From: Candidatus Azobacteroides sp.
GTDB lineage: Bacteria > Bacteroidota > Bacteroidia > Bacteroidales > Azobacteroidaceae
Reading direction: 5' to 3'
NCBI GenBank assembly: GCA_009783445.1
Contig: WRFY01000113.1
Location: 1 to 45,536, forward strand
DNA length: 45,536 bases
Below are positions 6,960-31,672 of this stretch, one piece after another (within the stretch, counting starts at the first letter, position 1; the number at the start of each line of letters is the position of its first letter). The notes beneath the pieces are model-generated. The model did no database searches. It worked only from the letters and a program-made list of their open reading frames with translations, and was not told the DNA's origin. A program made the translations under genes and the position numbers.

Positions 6960-8432
6960 CTATAATTCGTTTAACAAATTTAGTTTTCCTCGATCTATCA
7001 GAGTAATAATCAATTCGCCGAACAAGGCGTTTTGCCAAGCAAACCATTTTCGGGTGAATTGAACCGGATGGTCTTTGTGAAAAGATTCGTGCATGAATCC
7101 GGTTTCGGCATCCGTGTGGATCAACAGGCGAATGCACGATTTAATTTCTTCATCTTCTTGACTGGTGAAAGCTTTCATCATAATGCTCATGGGCCAGATC
7201 ATATCGTATCCGATGTGCGGACCGCCAATTCCTTCGCCTGCTGTTCCTTTAAAAAAATAGGGATTGTTTTCGCTCCAAATGTAGCGGCGGGTATTCTGAT
7301 AAATGGGATCGTCTACCTCTACGTCGCCCAAATAAGGCATGGCCAGCAAACTGGGCACATTGGCGTCGTCCATCAAGAATTGATTACCGAAACCATCCAC
7401 TTCGTAAGCATATATTTTCCCATACAGGGGATGAGCGTAAACCGCGTACGTTTTCAGCGCATTTTCGACTTCGAGCGCCAAATCGAGGCATTCTTCCGCC
7501 AGCACTTTTTCGTTCTTTACTTGGGTTAAGATTTCCGCGGCGCGGCGCAACGAAGTAACGGCAAAAAAGTTGGAAGGAATCAAAAACAGAAAAGTAGTTG
7601 CATCGTCGGAAGGACGAAAGGCCGAAGCGATCAATCCGACCGGTTTCACCGGTTGTCCCCAACCATCGTTCGACATTGTATCCAAAGCGCGTGCAGTGAC
7701 CCGTTGAAAATTGTACGAACCCAAACCTTCTTTTCGTTGTTGGTCTTTCAAAGTATCGATAATCAATCGGATGGCTTTTACCCAATCGTCGGTAAAAATA
7801 CTGGGGTCGCCCGTGGCTTTCCAATATTCATAAGCTAAGCGGATCGGATAACAAAGCGAATCGATCTCCCATTTGCGTTCGTGCAATTCTGGTTTCATAT
7901 CGGTTAAGTCGTTTTGCCATTCGCTATCCGGTTCGGGTTCGTCGTTGAATGCATTGGCAAAAGGATCCAATAAAATACATTTCGTTTGGCGGTGGATAAC
8001 GCCGGCCAGCATTTTTTTCAATTCCGGATCTTCGTTCGCTAAACGGATGTATGGAAATACCTGCGCGCCCGAATCGCGCAACCACATCGCATGAATATCT
8101 CCCGTGTAAACAAATGTGTCGTCTTGGCCGTCCAATATTCGGTAATGCACGGTCGTATCCAAAGTATTGGGAAAGCAGTTAGCAAACATCCACGACAATT
8201 TGGCATTTTTCAGGAGTTTGCATACTTCCGCAATTTTTTTCTCTACTGCCGTCGACCGGAAGAGCCGGTCTTTCACTTCCGGTCGTTGAGAAATGTATAC
8301 TTGCGTATGATCATTCGGCAGAGACGTCGTCTCTTGAAGTGCAAAACAAGACGCTTTGGCACGATCAGTGGTAAAAATGATTAAAAGAAAAAGAATTAAT
8401 AAGCTGATTTTCAGAGAAAACGAGTTTTTCAT
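6960..8432 (-). CDS. GH125 exo-alpha-1,6-mannosidase, secreted
   Basis: GH125 enzymes are metal-independent inverting exo-alpha-1,6-mannosidases. The sequence shows YTGDIHAMWLRDSGAQVFPY at about residues 109-128, a hallmark of the family, plus KWEIDSLCYPIRLAYEYW near 188-205 holding the likely acid Asp191. I place the start at 8432 because the protein then begins MKNSFSLKISLL, a good signal peptide; the open frame extends 26 codons further upstream to 8510 without homologous features. Length is then 490 residues. It is the first gene of the mannosidase operon; the two GH92 genes follow almost without gaps. Together they would strip alpha-1,2/1,3 and then alpha-1,6 mannose from high-mannose N-glycans or yeast mannan. 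No SusC/SusD pair lies in the window. Confidence 0.94.
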   Translation of the reverse strand: MKNSFSLKISLLILFLLIIFTTDRAKASCFALQETTSLPNDHTQVYISQRPEVKDRLFRSTAVEKKIAEVCKLLKNAKLSWMFANCFPNTLDTTVHYRILDGQDDTFVYTGDIHAMWLRDSGAQVFPYIRLANEDPELKKMLAGVIHRQTKCILLDPFANAFNDEPEPDSEWQNDLTDMKPELHERKWEIDSLCYPIRLAYEYWKATGDPSIFTDDWVKAIRLIIDTLKDQQRKEGLGSYNFQRVTARALDTMSNDGWGQPVKPVGLIASAFRPSDDATTFLFLIPSNFFAVTSLRRAAEILTQVKNEKVLAEECLDLALEVENALKTYAVYAHPLYGKIYAYEVDGFGNQFLMDDANVPSLLAMPYLGDVEVDDPIYQNTRRYIWSENNPYFFKGTAGEGIGGPHIGYDMIWPMSIMMKAFTSQEDEEIKSCIRLLIHTDAETGFMHESFHKDHPVQFTRKWFAWQNALFGELIITLIDRGKLNLLNEL

Positions 8433-8994
8433 GTTGATGATAAATATATTAAGATACAAAAAAGGAAAATTCATCTGTTTTTTATAGAACAATTGAACGG
8501 AAGAAATCACTTACTTACTCTTATTTCGGATATCTTTATCACTCTCGGATAAAATTGTTTGGCAAACGATCTATAATTTGTCAAAATGCGATTAATTTTA
8601 ACACAAAAAGTTAGGTCGATCCATAAGAACCTTGTACATTTGCAAATCTGCTAATGAAAAATGACAATCGCTGGAAATTCCTCAATAATTAAATGATGAA
8701 ACTGTGCGTATGCCCTTGTTGAAGATAAAAAAATAGATGTCGTCTTTCGGAAGTAAAAATTATTCTTTATAAAGTAGAGAGTAACAAAAAGCATGAAAAA
8801 TCAGTATGAACATTTTGAGAGAAATTGATTAGTTTTGAGTGATTTATTAACATGAAGAACCGTATGAAGGGAGACTTTCACGTACGGTTCTGTGGAAATG
8901 TGGGGGTGAAATTCCCATGCGTGATCCGATTAGGCGCCAGCGGGCGACAGTGCGTGCGGACAATGACGCAAAAAATTGAAAAAACAAATAGACA
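8433..8994. other. Intergenic region with group II intron relic
   Basis: A gap of about 560 bp. The first 420 bp are AT-rich with no credible gene or clear promoter for the GH125 operon. From 8857 the base composition changes and a group II intron domain V begins, followed by about 70 bp of GC-richer sequence up to 8970. No intron-encoded reverse transcriptase is present. Confidence 0.6.
8857..8920 (+). mobile_element. Group II intron 3' relic (domains V and VI)
   Basis: Positions 8857-8890 are exactly 34 nt, the standard length of group II domain V. GAACCGTA (8857-8864) pairs with TACGGTTC (8883-8890), and an upper AAGG/CTTT stem is capped by GAGA, a GNRA tetraloop. This matches the typical bacterial domain V layout (GAGCCGTA ... 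TACGGTTC). A domain VI-like hairpin follows after a short linker (8898-8920, GTGGG with CCCAT). The catalytic triad position reads AAC where active bacterial introns normally have AGC or CGC. Upstream domains and the reverse transcriptase are missing, so this is a dead fragment on the plus strand. The 3' boundary is approximate. Confidence 0.8.
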
Positions 8995-9261
8995 ATGGGC
9001 GGAGTGCTCTATTTTATAATATTTTTTTTAGCCTTTGGACTTACAGTCTTTGAATTATTATATTGGTTAGGCAAATTATTTATTTACCTATTACCAAAGA
9101 AGCTGAAGGAAAATCAGACATTTATTATTCAGATGTTTGTTTTATTTGTTTTAATTGGTAATATACTCTGTTTTAGTATTTTAAATTTTAAAAAATCAGA
9201 AAAAAAGGAACCAAACAGTAATCTACAAATAACCAGATGGAATGCCATCTATAGAGTTTGA
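8995..9261 (+). CDS. Small two-pass membrane protein
   Basis: An 88-residue ORF with two strong hydrophobic segments (about residues 4-32 and 42-66) separated by a short basic loop, ending in a lysine-rich tail. I do not recognise a family. The ATG at 8995 lies about 75 bp after the intron relic. Its last 20 nt overlap the start of the next ORF in another frame, so it is either translationally coupled to it or the two are pieces of one gene split by a frameshift. The composition is AT-rich, unlike the neighbouring mannosidase and fabK genes, which fits acquisition by transfer. Confidence is moderate that it is expressed. Confidence 0.55.
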   Translation: MGGVLYFIIFFLAFGLTVFELLYWLGKLFIYLLPKKLKENQTFIIQMFVLFVLIGNILCFSILNFKKSEKKEPNSNLQITRWNAIYRV

Positions 9262-9946
9262 AAAGTATAGAGAATCAGAAGAATTACGTAAATTGCACGA
9301 AGAACGATTAGAAAAACAAAGAAAAATACAAGAAGATGAATTAGAGAAATCACACCTATTAGACAAATTAGTCAAAGGTAGGATTGCTTATGAAGTTCCA
9401 GACACAATGAATGTTGGGAAAAACTATAATGCAACTGTGATTATCACGAAGGCAATGAATGACAGTATTCTTTTTGAAAATTTTCACCAAGGAAATTTCC
9501 AAAAAGAAGAAATAAGAGTATCTACCAGAGTTAAAGTTGTTTTGATTGACCCGACAGAAAACAACTTCGACATAACTTCACTCAGTACGGTAGAACAACT
9601 TGTTGATGATAGTACGAATACCGTTTGGAAATGGAATATTATTCCTAAACAAGGTGGAGATAATGTACTTGTCTTGCGAGTTACTGTTAAGGTATTAGAC
9701 CAATTAGGCGAAAATTATAAAGACATAAAAGTATTTGAAAAAACAATTAAAGTTCATACTCCTATTTTGACAAGATTAAAACAATTTATTGGCAATTATT
9801 GGCAGTGGCTTTCTACTGTTATTGTTATTCCATTAGATATTTGGGGTTACAAGATACTTTCAAATCGCAGGAAAAAGAACGCCGAACTAAAACAAGAACA
9901 AGAACGAAAACATAAAGAATTTAATAAATTGATAACGCAGAAGTAA
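9242..9946 (+). CDS. Membrane-anchored coiled-coil and beta-sandwich-like protein
   Basis: A 234-residue protein not assignable to a named family with certainty. Residues 5-40 are highly charged and likely coiled coil. Residues 45-175 look like an all-beta module with blocks YEVPDTMNVGKNYNATVII, DITSLSTVEQLV and VWKWNIIPKQGGDNVLVL. A transmembrane segment follows (about 187-205, WQWLSTVIVIPLDIWGYKIL), then a basic C-terminal coiled-coil tail. I recall similar 'P-x-M-x-V-G' beta modules next to membrane segments in uncharacterised signalling and conflict proteins, but that is a weak recollection. It overlaps the upstream ORF by 20 nt. Codon use is AT-rich compared with flanking core genes. Confidence 0.65.
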   Translation: MPSIEFEKYRESEELRKLHEERLEKQRKIQEDELEKSHLLDKLVKGRIAYEVPDTMNVGKNYNATVIITKAMNDSILFENFHQGNFQKEEIRVSTRVKVVLIDPTENNFDITSLSTVEQLVDDSTNTVWKWNIIPKQGGDNVLVLRVTVKVLDQLGENYKDIKVFEKTIKVHTPILTRLKQFIGNYWQWLSTVIVIPLDIWGYKILSNRRKKNAELKQEQERKHKEFNKLITQK

Positions 9947-20735: not shown

Positions 20736-21647
20736 CTAATTGATTCCCAGCACTTCGCATATAATCGCTTGTCGTGCAAATACGCCGTTTTTAGCCTGTT
20801 CGAAATAATAGGCTTTTGGATTGTCGTCGACATCGTAAGCAATTTCGTTTACGCGAGGCAAGGGATGTAGAATCCGGAGATTGTCCTTACTTGCATCCAA
20901 CATTTTATTATTGAGCACATACACATTTTTTACTTTCTCATATTCCATCAAATCGGTAAACCTTTCCCGTTGCACGCGGGTCATGTATAAAATATCCGAT
21001 TCATTGATCACTTCCGGTGAAAAATCCGTATGTTCGAAATAGCGAATAGCTTGTTTGTCTAAAAATTGCTTGTAAATATCCGGCAGTTTCAGTTCTTCCG
21101 GCGCTACCAGATGAAAGGTGGGATTGAAGTGCGACATTCCCGTGAGAAGCGAATGAACTGTGCGTCCATATTTCAAATCGCCCGCCATCGTAATGGTCAA
21201 ATCCTCCAACTTCCGCTGCGTTTTAAAGATCGAATACATATCCAGCATGGTTTGAGAAGGATGTTGGTTGGCTCCGTCGCCGGCATTGATAATCGGTATA
21301 TCCGTTATTTCGGATGCATAACGCGCGGCGCCTTCCAGATAATGACGCATAATGATTACATCGGCATAGTTGCTTACCATTTTAATGGTATCCTTCAACG
21401 TTTCTCCTTTGGAGGAGCTGGTGGTGGCTGCATCGCTAAATCCGATCACCCGTCCCCGCAGGCGATTGACGGCTGTTTCAAAACTCAAGCGCGTGCGCGT
21501 AGAAGGTTCAAAAAAAAGACTGGCACAAATCATCCCTTCCAATAGTTTTTGATTGGGATTCTGTTCAAAAAATTCAGTTTTTTGAATAATACGAACAATG
21601 CTTTCTTTCGAACAATCGGCTATTGATACAAAGCTATCTTTCTTCAT
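20736..21647 (-). CDS. pyrB: Aspartate carbamoyltransferase catalytic subunit
   Basis: Catalytic chain (303 residues) forming carbamoyl-aspartate, the committed step of pyrimidine synthesis. Diagnostic blocks: [15 protein letters not shown] (carbamoyl phosphate site), the SSSKGET loop with its conserved Ser and Lys, [41 protein letters not shown] and [11 protein letters not shown] minus-strand TACATTTG -7 box at 21668-21675 sits about 20 nt upstream, giving a very short leader, so classic leader attenuation is unlikely. The other pyr genes in this window, pyrK and pyrD, are about 10 kb away on the other strand. Confidence 0.98.
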
Positions 21648-22089: not shown

Positions 22090-22446
22090 CTATAGTAGCG
22101 TCAAGTCGTATTTTTCTACGAAATAATTCAGGTATTGAAAATCTATTTCGACAGAAAAGAGGTAGGTCGATTGATTTTCCCGCAATTCAAGATTCACTTC
22201 CAGATGTCGATTATTTTCCCACGTTTCGTTTTGTTCGTCTAAAACATGATTTCGAATAATCAAAGAATGGCGGGTGACCTTGTCTAAATGATCCAAAATC
22301 CACTCTAAAGGATGATCGGAACGAACCCTGCACCACGAATGATCTCCCATCCGGTCTATTTTGAAATTCACCGCATGTTGCACGCAATCCCAATAAAAAT
22401 CTTTGGTATTTGGTGTCAAATGATATATGTCGTTATCATTATTCAT
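22090..22446 (-). CDS. Conserved-looking hypothetical protein next to the repressor
   Basis: A 118-residue acidic, soluble protein, rich in His, Asn and Asp, with no signal peptide or membrane segment. I do not recognise a family. It has a mixed alpha/beta look: strand-like HSLIIRNHVL and HLEVNLELRE segments and a C-terminal STYLFSVEIDFQYLNYFVEKY. It starts 21 nt after the repressor gene ends on the same strand, so the two are probably co-transcribed, and this gene may modulate the repressor or belong to the host. Nothing in the sequence decides which. Confidence 0.7.
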   Translation of the reverse strand: MNNDNDIYHLTPNTKDFYWDCVQHAVNFKIDRMGDHSWCRVRSDHPLEWILDHLDKVTRHSLIIRNHVLDEQNETWENNRHLEVNLELRENQSTYLFSVEIDFQYLNYFVEKYDLTLL

Positions 22447-22467
22447 AAAAAAATGTTCAAAAGCAAA

Positions 22468-23136
22468 TTACATAACTACTTTTTGATATTTGGCCAATAC
22501 AAGCCATATCGATCGAATATATTTAATGGCAACCTCATAGCTGTCGTATTCCTTGTTATGAGATACCAAAAGAAAATGCTCGCGATCGCTTCCTTTTTTC
22601 ACTTCCTTGATCAACTTTCTATTGTCGATCAATTCAATGATATGGACGTCTCCATAATTCAATATTTCTTTCCATAATTCTACCTTCTGTATGCGAATAA
22701 TAGAACCCGCAGGGTAAGTCGGCGACATATCGTCATTCGTTATAGCAATGGCAATATCCTCTTCTTTGGCCTCTACAAAAGGGATATATCCCAATAAATA
22801 ACTATTCAGAGCGTCCATATCTTTATTCGAATCGCAAATAACATCTAAACTATAAAGCGGAACCAGGCGGTAATTTGTACCATTAAACCTTCCTTCCAAA
22901 ACCTTTTGTTTCGGACATTTGTATTTTTCACCTTCGCCTGTTTGTAACCATTCTTTTTCTATATCAAATGATATATAAATTTTATTAATGATTGCCTCTC
23001 CAATGGGTCTCTTTCCCGACAACATTGAAGACAAGTTCGATTGGTTAACGCCGATTCTCTTCGCAAACTTATTCATACTTAAGTTATTTTCAGATATTAT
23101 TTCTTTTATTCTCAAAATTATATCTTCATTTTTCAT
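22468..23136 (-). CDS. XRE/S24-like phage-type repressor
   Basis: A 222-residue two-domain regulator. Residues 1-65 form a helix-turn-helix domain (MNKFAKRIGVNQSNLSSMLSGKRP is the HTH core). Residues 90-215 resemble the LexA/CI S24 peptidase-like dimerisation domain. The usual nucleophile motif G-D-S-M-x-P is NDDMSP at 124-129, so Asp126 replaces the serine; a Lys-rich block (DNRKLIKEVKK) stands where the general-base lysine is expected. Self-cleavage on DNA damage is therefore unlikely. It is divergent from the lysis genes starting at 23364, and a 16-nt palindrome occurs in the shared promoter region and inside its own coding sequence, suggesting it controls itself and the lysis operon. Confidence 0.88.
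   Translation of the reverse strand: MKNEDIILRIKEIISENNLSMNKFAKRIGVNQSNLSSMLSGKRPIGEAIINKIYISFDIEKEWLQTGEGEKYKCPKQKVLEGRFNGTNYRLVPLYSLDVICDSNKDMDALNSYLLGYIPFVEAKEEDIAIAITNDDMSPTYPAGSIIRIQKVELWKEILNYGDVHIIELIDNRKLIKEVKKGSDREHFLLVSHNKEYDSYEVAIKYIRSIWLVLAKYQKVVM
22960..22975. promoter_or_regulatory. Putative operator inside the repressor gene
   Basis: TATATCAAATGATATA is a palindrome with 7-nt arms around a 2-nt centre, within codons 54-60 of the repressor. The same palindrome occurs at 23208-23223 over the divergent promoter. An in-gene copy could be an auxiliary site for looping or roadblock repression. Confidence 0.5.
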
Positions 23137-23165
23137 AATACCATTTATTTATACTCGTCCTAAAT

Positions 23166-23175
23166 TATCAAATGA
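23166..23175. promoter_or_regulatory. Weaker copy of the putative operator
   Basis: TATCAAATGA shares nine or so core bases with the 16-nt palindrome and lies between the repressor start and its candidate -7 box, where binding would fit autorepression. The match is partial. Confidence 0.35.
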
Positions 23176-23190
23176 ACTAAAAAAAGTTGT

Positions 23191-23198
23191 CAAATATA
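23191..23198 (-). promoter_or_regulatory. Candidate -7 box of the repressor gene
   Basis: Minus strand reads TATATTTG, an exact TAnnTTTG match, 55 nt before the repressor start. No clear -33 box. Confidence 0.45.
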
Positions 23199-23207
23199 CA
23201 ATTTATT

Positions 23208-23223
23208 TATATCATTTGATATA
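23208..23223. promoter_or_regulatory. Putative operator at the lysis-operon promoter
   Basis: TATATCATTTGATATA is the same 16-nt palindrome as at 22960-22975, read on the other strand. Its right end overlaps the candidate -7 box of the lysis operon (23222-23229) by two bases, so a bound repressor would block polymerase. Confidence 0.6.
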
Positions 23224-23229
23224 TCTTTG
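23222..23229 (+). promoter_or_regulatory. Candidate -7 box of the lysis operon
   Basis: TATCTTTG matches TAnnTTTG exactly and overlaps the putative operator. No -33 TTTG is seen at the usual spacing. The predicted leader to the first gene is about 130 nt and contains a poly-A tract. Confidence 0.5.
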
Positions 23230-23363
23230 TATCGTGTTTTTGATTCATGGAAGCAAAGATAAAAAAAAAAAAATAAAAATTGCACTAATACACATTCAGA
23301 AGTTTTGATTGGCTATAGCAAACACATACATAATTATTTACAAACAAATTAAATTTTTTGGCA

Positions 23364-23525
23364 ATGAAAAAGTTAAGATTGAAAAAAACAAATGGATTTA
23401 CGAAAGATGATTGCGTTCCGATCCTCTACACTTTGAAAAGAGGATATACCTATGAGTTCAATGTTAGAGAAACGTGCCATGGTAAAACAGTGCGGTTCCA
23501 CTCTCAATTTTTAGTAGTTAATTAA
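23364..23525 (+). CDS. Small basic protein, first gene of the lysis operon
   Basis: A 53-codon ORF starting MKKLRLKKTNGFTKDDC and ending in VRFHSQFLVVN. It is basic at the N-terminus, has two cysteines (17 and 38), and shows a strand-rich pattern (YTYEFNVRE, KTVRFHSQFLVV) that could be a small beta fold. No family recognised. It lies 58 bp before the next gene on the same strand and downstream of the operator-covered promoter. Possible roles are an antirepressor, a lysis timing factor or a leftover phage ORF; none is shown by the sequence. Confidence 0.55.
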   Translation: MKKLRLKKTNGFTKDDCVPILYTLKRGYTYEFNVRETCHGKTVRFHSQFLVVN

Positions 23526-23583
23526 AATAATTAACTAAATAACTAATCAATTAAATTTATCAACTACACAAATAATAATTTAT

Positions 23584-24207
23584 ATGAACAGAGATTTCTG
23601 GAGAAAAATCTTGTATTCTTCCCCTGTGGTTGTGTTGATCGTATTATTGATATACATCAATATTTCGATTGGCCAAGTGAAGAGTATCGTTTATGACTAC
23701 ATTTTTACTGCAAATGTAGAGACTATAAAAAATTTTTCAAGCGAGATAAAACTTTTATTGGACACTTCTTTGAAATATGGAAAAACAGAGGGGAAGGTGA
23801 GATCAATTTTCGATCTAATAGAGGTATTTAATAAAGCGATTGGCGGAAAATACGCCGTTATTACATTTTTGGCGGATAGCGATAGGACCATCTATCACAG
23901 CAATAATTATAATCAAGCGTATGTTTCCGGACTGTTGGAAAATAGAGATAACGAAGCTTATTTAAATCAATTGCTGGCAAATCATGAATCTAAAGATGTA
24001 TTCTTCAAAAACAACGGCGAAGATCAGCATTGGTATTGCCAAGCGCTTTCGGGCGTCAATAAAGATTACTGCATGTTTGTCACGGTAGATAAGAACATAT
24101 TAGCTAAAAGAATACGTATTACCCAAGTAATCATTCCTCTTTGTATTTTGAGTATGCTTTTGTTATTGTCTACTGAAGTATCAATTTGGGCAAAATCTAA
24201 TCATTAA
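23584..24207 (+). CDS. Two-pass membrane protein with sensor-like extracytoplasmic domain
   Basis: A 207-residue protein with a transmembrane helix at about 10-30, an extracytoplasmic domain of about 145 residues, and a second helix at about 179-203, with both ends short and cytoplasmic. The central part (GGKYAVITFLADSDRTIYHSN, then HWYCQALSGVNKDYCMFVTVDKN) resembles the alpha/beta layout of Cache-type sensor domains as found in histidine kinases and chemoreceptors, but there is no output domain. The two cysteines in the second block could form a disulfide. It sits between the small basic protein and the holin-like gene. A role in sensing a signal, or as an antiholin-like lysis regulator, is inference. 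Confidence 0.75.
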   Translation: MNRDFWRKILYSSPVVVLIVLLIYINISIGQVKSIVYDYIFTANVETIKNFSSEIKLLLDTSLKYGKTEGKVRSIFDLIEVFNKAIGGKYAVITFLADSDRTIYHSNNYNQAYVSGLLENRDNEAYLNQLLANHESKDVFFKNNGEDQHWYCQALSGVNKDYCMFVTVDKNILAKRIRITQVIIPLCILSMLLLLSTEVSIWAKSNH

Positions 24208-24220
24208 AAAATTAAACAAA

Positions 24221-24532
24221 ATGGATGTCAATCTTATAGAAGTTCTAATCAATATTGCCCTTTCTTCTTTTGGCGGCCTGATTAAGAGTATATCAGAAAG
24301 CCAAAGAAACCCAGAAAAAAGAGTAACATTTTCACATTACATGATCGGTTCGTCTATATCACTATTTGTGGGTATTGTTGTTTTTTTCTTGTGTAAATAT
24401 TTTGAACTTTCATCTTTCCTGACTGCGGGAATTACCGCATTGTCCGGATATATGGGAAGTCCCGTTTTAGATATACTGTCAGATATTGCCAAGAGGCGCT
24501 TGAACACATACTTACATGATATAGGAAATTAG
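24221..24532 (+). CDS. Phage holin-like protein
   Basis: A 103-residue membrane protein with an amphipathic N-terminal segment and two clear hydrophobic helices (about 40-61 and 68-87) and a charged C-terminal tail (SDIAKRRLNTYLHDI). The LTAGITALSGYMGSPVLDIL block resembles the small LydA/phage holin 3-type families, where a G-x-x-G-x-P turn ends the last helix. Holins oligomerise in the inner membrane and release endolysin. The gene starts 13 nt after the sensor-like gene and is followed by a glucosaminidase lacking a signal peptide, which is the classic holin-endolysin pair. Family assignment from motif only. Confidence 0.78.
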   Translation: MDVNLIEVLINIALSSFGGLIKSISESQRNPEKRVTFSHYMIGSSISLFVGIVVFFLCKYFELSSFLTAGITALSGYMGSPVLDILSDIAKRRLNTYLHDIGN

Positions 24533-24602
24533 TGCTCAATGAATTATACACACAAACACACACACTATGGTTTATTATGAACACATTAAATTTGAATTAT
24601 TT

Positions 24603-25163
24603 ATGGCAACAAAACAAGAACAAATTGATTTCGTAAGAAGAGTGTATCCGGCTGCTCAAAGAATGTATGCTAAGAATCCGGAAGAAGCTCTCAGTCCTCT
24701 GTTTGTAACAGCACAGGCCGCACTTGAAACGGGCTGGAGAATCAAAGGAATTGACAACAACATCTTTGGAATTACGAAAGGAAAATCGTGGACAGGAAAA
24801 ACAAAGTTAGTTTTAACTACGGAGTATTTTTCTTCTCCCAATGTGAAATTCGTAGAACCGGAAAGAATCATTTCCATCACCCAAGTGGGCGATAAGTACA
24901 AATATTCGGTATATAGATTATTCCGAGCGTACGATTCCTTGGAAGATTGTTTGGAAGATCAGCTCAAATTACTGAAAAGCTCTGGTTATAAAGACGCTTG
25001 GCCCTATAGAGATGATCCTGTTGAATTCGCAAAACGTATCGTCGACGATACCGGCGCGAAATATGCTACGGCTACTAATTATGCCGCTATCATGGCTTCT
25101 GTGATTCAAATGGTTGATCGAATCGTGCAGCAAGAAAGCATTGGCATGGAATTAGCCTCATAG
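24603..25163 (+). CDS. Glucosaminidase endolysin (GH73-like)
   Basis: A 186-residue peptidoglycan hydrolase of the mannosyl-glycoprotein endo-beta-N-acetylglucosaminidase (FlgJ-like, GH73) family. The core block FVTAQAALETGW places the catalytic glutamate at Glu42; NNIFGITKGKSW, FRAYDSLEDCLEDQLKLL and the C-terminal YATATNYAAIM blocks also match. The start at 24603 (MATKQEQIDF) is preferred; the frame is open 12 codons further upstream to 24567, but that extension adds nothing conserved. There is no signal peptide or membrane segment, so export needs the neighbouring holin-like protein, as for phage endolysins. A strong terminator follows, closing the operon. Confidence 0.9.
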   Translation: MATKQEQIDFVRRVYPAAQRMYAKNPEEALSPLFVTAQAALETGWRIKGIDNNIFGITKGKSWTGKTKLVLTTEYFSSPNVKFVEPERIISITQVGDKYKYSVYRLFRAYDSLEDCLEDQLKLLKSSGYKDAWPYRDDPVEFAKRIVDDTGAKYATATNYAAIMASVIQMVDRIVQQESIGMELAS

Positions 25164-25207
25164 CATGGGTCGAAAGACATAAAAGTATTGTTTTAGGTTA
25201 TCCGCAG

Positions 25208-25241
25208 GGGGCGTTCAATTTTTGGACGCCCCTTGTTTTTT
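25208..25241 (+). terminator. Intrinsic terminator of the lysis operon
   Basis: GGGGCGTTC (25208-25216) pairs with GGACGCCCC (25224-25232) with one wobble, followed by TTGTTTTTT. It lies 45 nt after the endolysin stop on the plus strand. Confidence 0.88.
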
Positions 25242-25256
25242 CATGAGCCGTGTTTT

Positions 25257-25832
25257 TTATTTCACAAATGCATATTCTACCTCAACGGATTGAATCATTT
25301 CTCTGTTTTTCGTATCTGCGGCCGTATAGCGAGGTTCGACGATCGTCGAAGTCTCCTGATCGCCAATAGTGATAAATGTTTGGTAGATAGCTTCACTTTC
25401 GCCGTAAAGAGTGGCTTCCACAACCACTTTATACGTCCCCTTGGCGACGGGCGAACCGTTGTTATCAGTGAGGTCCCAGACATAAGTTTGCAAACCCGAT
25501 AAAGGCGTAGCTCCGGAGAAGGCGTCGATCTGATTGCCCGTTAAAGTTTTCGGCAACGCTTTGCTGACCCACACAGGCGTACAGGCTGGACGGGGAGCGT
25601 ATCCTCCATCGGCCGTAAAGTTGGTGACAAACAGCGTTTTCACCAGATTCCCTTTAGCATCTTCGATCCAAACTGCCCATTGGTTGCTGCCCGGACCGGC
25701 TTGTTTTTCATAATTCACTTTGACGCTTACAACTGCCGATGGCGATTTTGTTTCGGCAGAGTCTTTTTTCGTATGACAACTGGTTGTTGTCCACAAAAGA
25801 ATGGATAAAAGAAAAAAAACAACTGATTTCAT
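25257..25832 (-). CDS. DUF2271-like lipoprotein
   Basis: A 191-residue lipoprotein; signal peptide ends LWTTTSC with Cys19 as lipid site. The mature part begins with SVKVNYEKQAGPGSNQWAVW and AKGNLVKTLFVTNF, then has a FlgD/Ig-like segment YVWDLTDNNGSPVAKGTYKVVVEAT. This order is what I know of DUF2271 periplasmic proteins, often found next to heme- or flavin-linked iron/electron-transfer proteins. No such partner is beside it here: it stands alone, convergent with the lysis operon and divergent from nrdJ. Function is unknown. Confidence 0.82.
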   Translation of the reverse strand: MKSVVFFLLSILLWTTTSCHTKKDSAETKSPSAVVSVKVNYEKQAGPGSNQWAVWIEDAKGNLVKTLFVTNFTADGGYAPRPACTPVWVSKALPKTLTGNQIDAFSGATPLSGLQTYVWDLTDNNGSPVAKGTYKVVVEATLYGESEAIYQTFITIGDQETSTIVEPRYTAADTKNREMIQSVEVEYAFVK

Positions 25833-31225: not shown

Positions 31226-31672
31226 ATGGTAGACCGAATAAAGAAAATAATGGATAAATCGGGTATGACTCCTTCAACTTTCGCCGATTACATAAATATC
31301 AATCGTACGACCATCAGCCATATTTTAAGCGGAAGAAACAAAAAGCCCAGCATCGATGTCGTCATGCAAATCTTAGAAAAATACCCTGAAATAAATTCCG
31401 ATTGGTTAATCTTTGGGAAGGGACCCATGAACAAAAGTGAAAAACCTGTTTTAGAGATGAAAAATCTATTTGACAACGAAACGGTCAATCCGCCAAAAAA
31501 TACAAATGTTTCGAAACATGTGAAAGATACTATGGAAAAACAAGGAGACGTTTTGCCTAAATCAACTAAAAATCAAACGCTTATAGGAGAAATGAGTATG
31601 ACTGAAAATATAGATAAAATAGTAATTTTTTTCAAAAATAAAACCTATATTACTTTGAAACCAGAGGAATAA
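31226..31672 (+). CDS. Small XRE-family transcriptional regulator
   Basis: A 148-residue DNA-binding protein. Residues 1-70 are a classic helix-turn-helix (MTPSTFADYININRTTISHILSGRNKKPS) followed by LEKYPEINSDWLIFGKGPM, a signature ending seen in Bacteroidales XRE proteins. The remaining 75 residues are polar and probably disordered except for a final short beta hairpin (KIVIFFKNKTYITLKP). There is no S24 domain. The upstream region is crowded with ACAAATG copies, so self-control is likely. It precedes pyrK by about 70 bp, but pyrK has its own promoter, so the two need not be linked. Confidence 0.88.
   Translation: MVDRIKKIMDKSGMTPSTFADYININRTTISHILSGRNKKPSIDVVMQILEKYPEINSDWLIFGKGPMNKSEKPVLEMKNLFDNETVNPPKNTNVSKHVKDTMEKQGDVLPKSTKNQTLIGEMSMTENIDKIVIFFKNKTYITLKPEE

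Follow-up and report, generated by a model that had tools for sequence, protein, structure and literature searches.

The stretch of DNA under study (hereafter the window) is one whole contig of 45,536 bp, WRFY01000113.1, from the Candidatus Azobacteroides sp. assembly GCA_009783445.1, a genome of 2.7 Mb in 125 contigs. Flanked by two minus-strand genes, pyrB (20736-21647, which reads away) and a DUF2271 gene (25257-25832), are six intact genes that make up a repressor and lysis cassette: on the minus strand a repressor gene followed, after a gap of 21 bp, by a gene for a protein of 118 amino acids (aa), and on the plus strand, in order, genes for proteins of 53, 207, 103 (a holin) and 198 aa (an endolysin), followed by a terminator. 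The five genes reported in a first-pass annotation of this DNA were all confirmed as present and intact at the positions given there, the sixth gene (22090-22446, minus strand) having been overlooked. The strong terminator described in that annotation as closing the operon was likewise borne out, having 15 pairs plus a T run compared with 5-6 pairs at each of the other three terminator-like sites in the region; terminator-like sites as such showed no excess (4 in the region, 2.6 in shuffles). The features of the cassette, in order of position, are:

22090-22446, minus strand: open reading frame (ORF) for the 118-aa protein, behind the repressor gene on the same strand
22414-22427, plus strand: operator-like site O4 (TGTCAAATGATATA), within the first codons of the 118-aa gene
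22468-23136, minus strand: CI-type repressor, with a helix-turn-helix (HTH) and an S24 domain, Asp136 in place of the catalytic Ser and a Cys-Asp scissile pair (from profile matches and alignments)
22960-22975: operator-like site O2, a perfect palindrome TATATCA-N2-TGATATA, inside the repressor gene
23166-23179, plus strand: operator-like variant O3 (TATCAAATGAACTA), in the repressor leader
23191-23198, minus strand: TANNTTTG -7-like element (TATATTTG) of the repressor operon
23208-23223: operator-like site O1, a perfect palindrome TATATCA-N2-TGATATA, between the divergent promoters
23222-23229, plus strand: TANNTTTG -7-like element (TATCTTTG) of the lysis operon, touching O1
23364-23525, plus strand: ORF for the 53-aa orphan protein, the first in the lysis operon
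23584-24207, plus strand: 207-aa orphan protein with two hydrophobic stretches, one on either side of some 150 residues
24221-24532, plus strand: LydA-type holin, 103 aa (PF16083, E = 6.7e-19)
24567-25163, plus strand: leaderless GH73 glucosaminidase endolysin, 198 aa (PF01832, E = 6.2e-15; PHROG endolysin, E = 4.2e-22)
25204-25236, plus strand: intrinsic terminator at the operon end

Profile searches with the repressor returned HTH_19 (PF12844, E = 1.4e-8), Peptidase_S24 (PF00717, E = 4.5e-9) and the PHROG 'transcriptional repressor' (E = 3.4e-24), and thus confirmed the HTH and S24 domains of the S24-like repressor named in the first-pass annotation, but its S24 nucleophile proved to be missing. 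Alignments were made with 11 homologues and then with nine more or overlapping ones, phages included, and the residues at each site were counted over the 37 fetched loci whose best match covers it, near-duplicates included. All 37 homologues have Ser at the catalytic position, which is Asp136 in the cassette repressor; the latter retains Lys177 (Lys in 36 homologues, Arg in one) and consequently does not have the Ser-Lys catalytic dyad of cleavable S24/CI repressors. Nor does it have the Ala-Gly scissile pair, the corresponding residues being Cys101-Asp102, compared with Ala-Gly in 23 of the 37 homologues, Gly-Gly in six and other pairs in eight, counts that depend partly on gap placement (the locus L030 gives Ala-Gly in the 11-homologue alignment). 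As the Asp136 codon, GAT, could be reached from a Ser codon only by two or more base changes, a single sequencing error is no explanation. Ala-Gly and Ser-Lys form the S24 signature of Bacteroidetes repressors (PMC8565304). The missing catalytic Ser and the Cys-Asp at the scissile pair together suggest that the repressor would not be opened by RecA and that SOS induction is unlikely; with the repressor seemingly non-cleavable, the obvious trigger, DNA damage, would be removed and should not set off the lysis genes. For certain repressors the opening agent is an antirepressor or a small protein (PMC3121763, PMC10432266), and the 53-aa product is a candidate for that role here.

A second feature of the cassette is the group of operator-like sites, of which O1 sits between two back-to-back TANNTTTG boxes. 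Exact copies of TATATCA-N2-TGATATA occur in the window only at 22960 and 23208 (0.01 expected with at most one mismatch), TATATCA is the sole recurring arm among the 36 perfect inverted repeats of arm length 7 in the window, and a repeated 16-nt palindrome arose in none of 1000 Markov-simulated regions. Allowing up to two mismatches gave six operator matches at four places, all within 22414-23223, against 0.82 expected and with none of 100 shuffles reaching six; at up to three mismatches the excess was lost (13 matches, 10.8 by chance). The operator-like sites are therefore more than chance. Across the 2.7-Mb genome, the exact operator 14-mer is found in two copies, both in the cassette, and there are three one-mismatch sites, one of them the 22414 site and two inside ORFs elsewhere. 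Taken together, these counts are good evidence that the palindromes would serve as a dedicated, local site for the repressor. A second genomic target was considered and dropped, both outside one-mismatch sites (C3:405-418 and C61:12184-12197) lying inside ORFs, the latter in a Vsr-like gene of a cluster read as restriction-modification. Matches of sigma-70 type were recorded at both promoters of the cassette (11 and 10 of 12 positions).

Of the lysis proteins, the holin-like protein and the glucosaminidase without signal peptide both bore out their initial designations. The holin scored 68.2 bits, well above the PF16083 cut-off of 28.4, as expected of the holin of a lysis module. The endolysin, identified by its PF01832 and PHROG matches, exhibited no hydrophobic stretch in a Kyte-Doolittle scan (as distinct from a signal-peptide program), and so should need the holin. 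Its Glu54 is invariant in the six endolysin sequences aligned. We take this residue to be catalytic; the product of 24567-25163 would thus combine the glutamate and the lack of signal peptide looked for in the wall hydrolase of a lysis module. Its true start is probably 24603 rather than 24567, because its relatives begin at the corresponding Met. A scan for spanins, confined to the lipobox kind with other kinds lying outside it, found no lipobox ORF on the plus strand of 23137-25260.

The nearest relatives of the endolysin were from Dysgonomonas sp. 216 (65% identity) and an IMG/VR contig (62%), both on contigs classed as viral by IMG/VR; reading of the ORFs around them suggested membrane proteins and spanin-like, terminase- or tail-type and integrase-like genes, and PHROGs named none of the three neighbours tested for the 65% relative. 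In the high-GC viral contigs L218, L226 and L238, a gene for a LydA-like holin immediately precedes that for a GH73 endolysin (E = 3e-5 to 2e-3; weaker elsewhere). Of 183 loci carrying an endolysin of this kind, a count that includes overlapping copies, only two have such a repressor as well. Both run from membrane-protein genes through the endolysin, a lipoprotein and further genes to the opposite-strand repressor and then the early-side genes, an arrangement from which the placing of lysis genes straight behind the early promoter differs.

The ancestry of the repressor was pursued with a maximum-likelihood tree of 38 rows, in which it paired with the repressor of the locus L035 (support 99/97), both on long branches, and fell outside a 20-row clade (99/99) of mostly chromosomal LexA-like genes that also contains one unannotated phage-collection record, L254. 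The L035 repressor adjoins an integrase-like gene and has RecT-like and other early-type genes ahead of it (names by reading of the ORFs); on that reading it is of prophage type, and the pairing supports a prophage origin for the cassette repressor. The alternative that the latter is a host LexA draws on its best matches by E-value in the order, which are chromosomal LexA-like genes (top identity 34%), but is disfavoured by the missing Ser and Ala-Gly, the confinement of exact operators to the cassette and the position in the tree outside the chromosomal clade.

Thirty flanking ORFs were also scanned, the results described here covering 25 of the 36 PHROG families and 25 of the 51 Pfam families matched. 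The Pfam matches were to housekeeping or carbohydrate genes (ammonium transporter, pyrB, pyrI, flavin reductase, serine hydroxymethyltransferase, ribonucleotide reductase, dihydroorotate dehydrogenase, GH92, GH94, GH125 and others), plus one PD-(D/E)XK-type transposase. Among the PHROG families covered there was no terminase, capsid, tail or integrase, and hence none of the components of a complete prophage; a holin plus hydrolase is thereby found apart from phage structural genes, as in type 10 secretion. The PHROG families that did appear included, in one ORF each, ribonucleotide reductase, DnaB-like helicase, transposase and repressor families. The initial statement that no terminase, capsid, tail, integrase or replication gene is near accordingly stands, within the families covered, for structural genes and integrase; the replication-type matches, to ribonucleotide reductase and DnaB-like helicase, are read as host genes. 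No cargo candidate was recognised beside the cassette, and the insertion site showed no convincing flanking repeat. The GC content is 34.3% in the cassette and about 40% in the flanks, only five of 170 segments of equal size, all five overlapping the cassette, being equally AT-rich.

The reading that we favour, with a probability of roughly 0.6, is that the cassette derives from a prophage of which only immunity and lysis genes remain, held by a non-cleavable repressor. The immunity part would consist of the repressor, a gene accompanying it, and the early promoter that the repressor controls, followed by the first small gene; it would have been joined to the lysis genes probably by deletion of the intervening replication, structural and integration genes. 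Loss of everything between would yield the order found in the cassette. A repressor dimer on O1 would block the lysis promoter and, with O2-O4, the repressor's own operon as well; once the repressor was removed, all four plus-strand genes would be made, the holin would open the inner membrane, and the leaderless glucosaminidase would reach and cut the wall, the outer membrane, with no recognisable spanin, failing slowly or blebbing. Such a switch would be locked, or would respond to a different signal, for instance an antirepressor. Loss of the repressor would be lethal for as long as the lysis genes work, a lethality that could explain retention of the repressor without benefit to the cell. 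If a remnant, the cassette would show how lethal phage genes can persist in a chromosome, under a repressor that cannot be lost and whose own DNA-damage switch is gone; if working, it would give a Bacteroidales cell a compact means of lysis or vesicle formation in response to some cue besides DNA damage.

The distribution of the cassette was assessed in related genomes and in viral and plasmid collections, the GTDB and viral-contig scans being made with short exact peptide patterns that detect close relatives only. The holin family exceeded its cut-off in one of 295 genomes of the order and one of 45 of the family, the source genome both times, two further genomes of the order giving matches under the cut-off (E = 4e-4 and 7e-4). 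With the source genome counted, the endolysin was found in eight of the 295, where four of the matches were weak (E = 2e-4 to 6e-4), and in two of the 45, the other family member having an internal stop. The 207-aa protein was confined to the source genome apart from one discounted match in the 295, at E = 9.3e-4 and with three internal stops. At E = 0.01 the 53-, 118- and 207-aa proteins had no counterpart in any of 236 loci (245 less seven of the window's own contig and two copies of the contig C36), peptide patterns detected no relative of the holin, repressor, 53-aa or 118-aa proteins in viral contigs, and the fetched pyrB stretches of 15 relatives held no cassette gene and shared no right flank from which an empty site could be read. 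The check initially proposed, for the same gene order free of prophage genes in related Bacteroidales, therefore had nothing to compare, as the cassette occurred in no relative searched; nor did it occur solely within complete prophages, the outcome named as fatal to the initial proposal, the whole cassette having been found nowhere else.

Purifying selection, the other check proposed at the outset, could be addressed for the endolysin only, and roughly. Comparison with its nearest relative gave a nonsynonymous divergence (dN) of 0.26 and a synonymous divergence (dS) of 3.8, the latter being saturated, and not computable for the others. Changes private to the cassette endolysin at codon positions 1, 2 and 3 numbered 21, 11 and 31 with the two nearest relatives, and with more distant ones 17, 15 and 19 and 18, 15 and 23, a weaker excess. 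This mild third-position excess, most of it older than the present locus, is compatible with constraint on the endolysin over a long time and is silent on the locus as it now stands. Codon scores were -0.019 for the holin and 0.045-0.086 for the other cassette genes, the host mean being 0.097.

A number of observations weigh against a pared-down prophage. With regard to the repressor, the eight homologues having neither Ala-Gly nor Gly-Gly make the scissile pair weaker evidence than the Ser; the best matches by E-value, besides being chromosomal, adjoin trmB-like genes and carry the Ser; and the paired rows of the tree are both on long branches. With regard to the promoters, the TANNTTTG element recurs often across the window (28 matches on one strand, 38 on the other), there is no good -33 element for the plus-strand (lysis) promoter, and sigma-70-like matches in the region, at 13 compared with 16.6 in shuffles, show no excess. 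Outside phages, the endolysin domain is found by itself with host-type genes on either side in L022 and fused to another domain in L087 and L088; the annotated relatives of the holin come from phages of Proteobacteria and Campylobacterota, the nearest of the endolysin from Bacteroidales, so that a single parent prophage is not established; and the gene-order comparison rests on two loci. Furthermore, there is no sign of an old prophage boundary in the form of an attachment repeat, an integrase or a decayed phage gene, no intermediate between full prophage and cassette was found, all six frames are intact, which is unusual in an old remnant, and the codon score of the holin resembles those of two antisense control ORFs (-0.005 and -0.024).

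The intact frames are what a captured module for self-lysis or release would display, in which a fraction of cells would be opened to release proteins, DNA or vesicles, with the two-transmembrane protein as sensor. The dedicated operator-like sites and the pairing of a leaderless endolysin with a holin also fit that proposal, as do precedents in the DLP12 lysis module and vesicles (PMC7918800), the pyocin-cluster endolysin and explosive lysis (PMC4834629) and the type 10 secretion system (PMC10101115, PMC13284979). Nevertheless, it is rather unlikely, given that the holin and the two-transmembrane protein are restricted to the source genome as set out above, no cargo gene was recognised adjacent and no spanin was recognisable, SOS control is improbable, and the sensor label has no sequence support. 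What survives of the regulated lysis or export module envisaged in the first-pass annotation is accordingly a self-contained repressor-operator unit before a holin and endolysin, but a host function for it is unsupported. A narrower version, in which a programmed lysis switch independent of DNA damage is opened in some cells by a 207-aa or 53-aa signal acting on the non-cleavable repressor, with release of contents or vesicles, is quite unlikely.

Intact frames could also mean that the cassette is a functionless fragment in decay, left by a deletion or transfer too young for frames to have been broken, Asp136 being drift. Occurrence in one genome only, the AT-rich composition, the two or more base changes separating Asp136 from Ser and the antisense-like codon score of the holin are all in keeping with such an origin, which is nonetheless unlikely in view of the operator-like sites persisting at four places and of the third-position excess in the endolysin, itself mostly predating the present locus. 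That assembly or binning has artefactually joined a phage fragment to a chromosome contig is very improbable: the genome is in 125 contigs and the 15 pyrB stretches are without the cassette, but the contig runs on through pyrB and the DUF2271 gene with frames intact, its ends being 22 and 20 kb away.

The favoured reading, a prophage reduced to immunity and lysis genes, invites comparison with several known systems. In DLP12, a defective prophage of Escherichia coli K-12 in which deletion of the lysis module changes vesicle production (PMC7918800), a holin and endolysin likewise remain; the DLP12 operon has two spanins, however, whereas none was recognised in the cassette, where a promoter under repressor control stands immediately before the lysis genes. 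Type 10 secretion systems (PMC10101115, PMC13284979) similarly deploy a phage-derived holin and wall hydrolase without a phage, but under host regulators, whereas the cassette, whose secretion is putative, has a phage repressor and no recognised cargo gene or spanin. The immunity regions of the Bacteroidota temperate phages BS-TP2, Porphyromonas phage005a and phage007a, Riemerella GDF21 and CRP34 share with it an S24-type repressor, a same-strand gene behind and opposite-strand genes ahead; in those phages the genes ahead are hypothetical, recombination or transposase genes rather than lysis genes, and a further difference is that the cassette repressor lacks the nucleophile. The non-canonical Bacteroidetes LexA (PMC8565304) resembles the cassette repressor in its CI-type HTH plus S24 architecture and palindromes at its own promoter, but those palindromes are GGA-N5-TCC and CTAA-N5-TTAG as opposed to TATATCA-N2-TGATATA, and the cassette repressor has lost Ser and Ala-Gly, has exact sites in the cassette only and lies outside the chromosomal clade. 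With phage P1 LydA (PMC9025707) the cassette holin shares PF16083, the Pfam LydA holin family, but no LydB-like gene or signal-arrest-release (SAR) endolysin was recognised in the cassette. A literature search at the level of titles and the beginnings of abstracts returned no such module from Bacteroidales or its phylum.

The remaining three products are orphans. The 118-aa protein gave no Pfam, NCBIfam or PADLOC match and a best PHROG E-value of 0.032, with no relative in phages or, by peptide patterns, in viral contigs; the 53-aa protein gave no significant family match and no relative in the same two collections, and its suggested kinship with an SH3-barrel protein of Bacteroides phage BS-TP2 was rejected as no alignment was obtained. 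In the 207-aa protein, the hydrophobic stretches at residues 5-23 and 177-195 uphold the two-pass topology first described, but 'sensor-like' had been drawn from that topology alone: the best Pfam hit of the protein was not significant (E = 0.13), a comparison with PDB sequences yielded nothing up to E = 10, and no relative was found in GTDB contigs, phages, viral contigs, plasmids or the other 44 genomes of the family. A defence-system reading of the cassette was set aside, as the repressor drew nothing from PADLOC beyond HTH-type matches and the holin reached E = 0.026.

Several further observations were made in passing. The same genome contains, on contig C36, an apparent true prophage end with a tail-type protein, an endolysin of its own and an integrase (PHROGs), the endolysin being 47-51% identical to that of the cassette over two pieces; in the fetched locus (L006, 6904-9222) the endolysin, a lipoprotein and the integrase lie together, and the lipoprotein (7374-7760), with a C-terminal hydrophobic stretch, is read as a candidate one-piece spanin. 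In two Tannerella sp. metagenome-assembled genomes (L087:7134-8498 and L088:7215-8519) a glucosaminidase domain 53-54% identical to that of the endolysin stands behind an unnamed N-terminal domain, no phage genes being recognised at either locus, so that a wall hydrolase of phage type has apparently been built into another protein. Elsewhere in the window, a second CI-type HTH gene (31226-31672, 148 aa, AT-rich) lies just upstream of genes for dihydroorotate dehydrogenase and a subunit of iron-sulfur electron-transfer type (pyrimidine pathway), and an Rfam group II intron match (8855-8930, in an AT-rich stretch) is followed by a 234-aa ORF (9242-9946) with no Pfam match at E = 0.001. Finally, the source genus includes genomes of about 1.0-1.2 Mb (99% completeness) alongside others of 2-5 Mb, which suggests strong genome reduction in some of its members.

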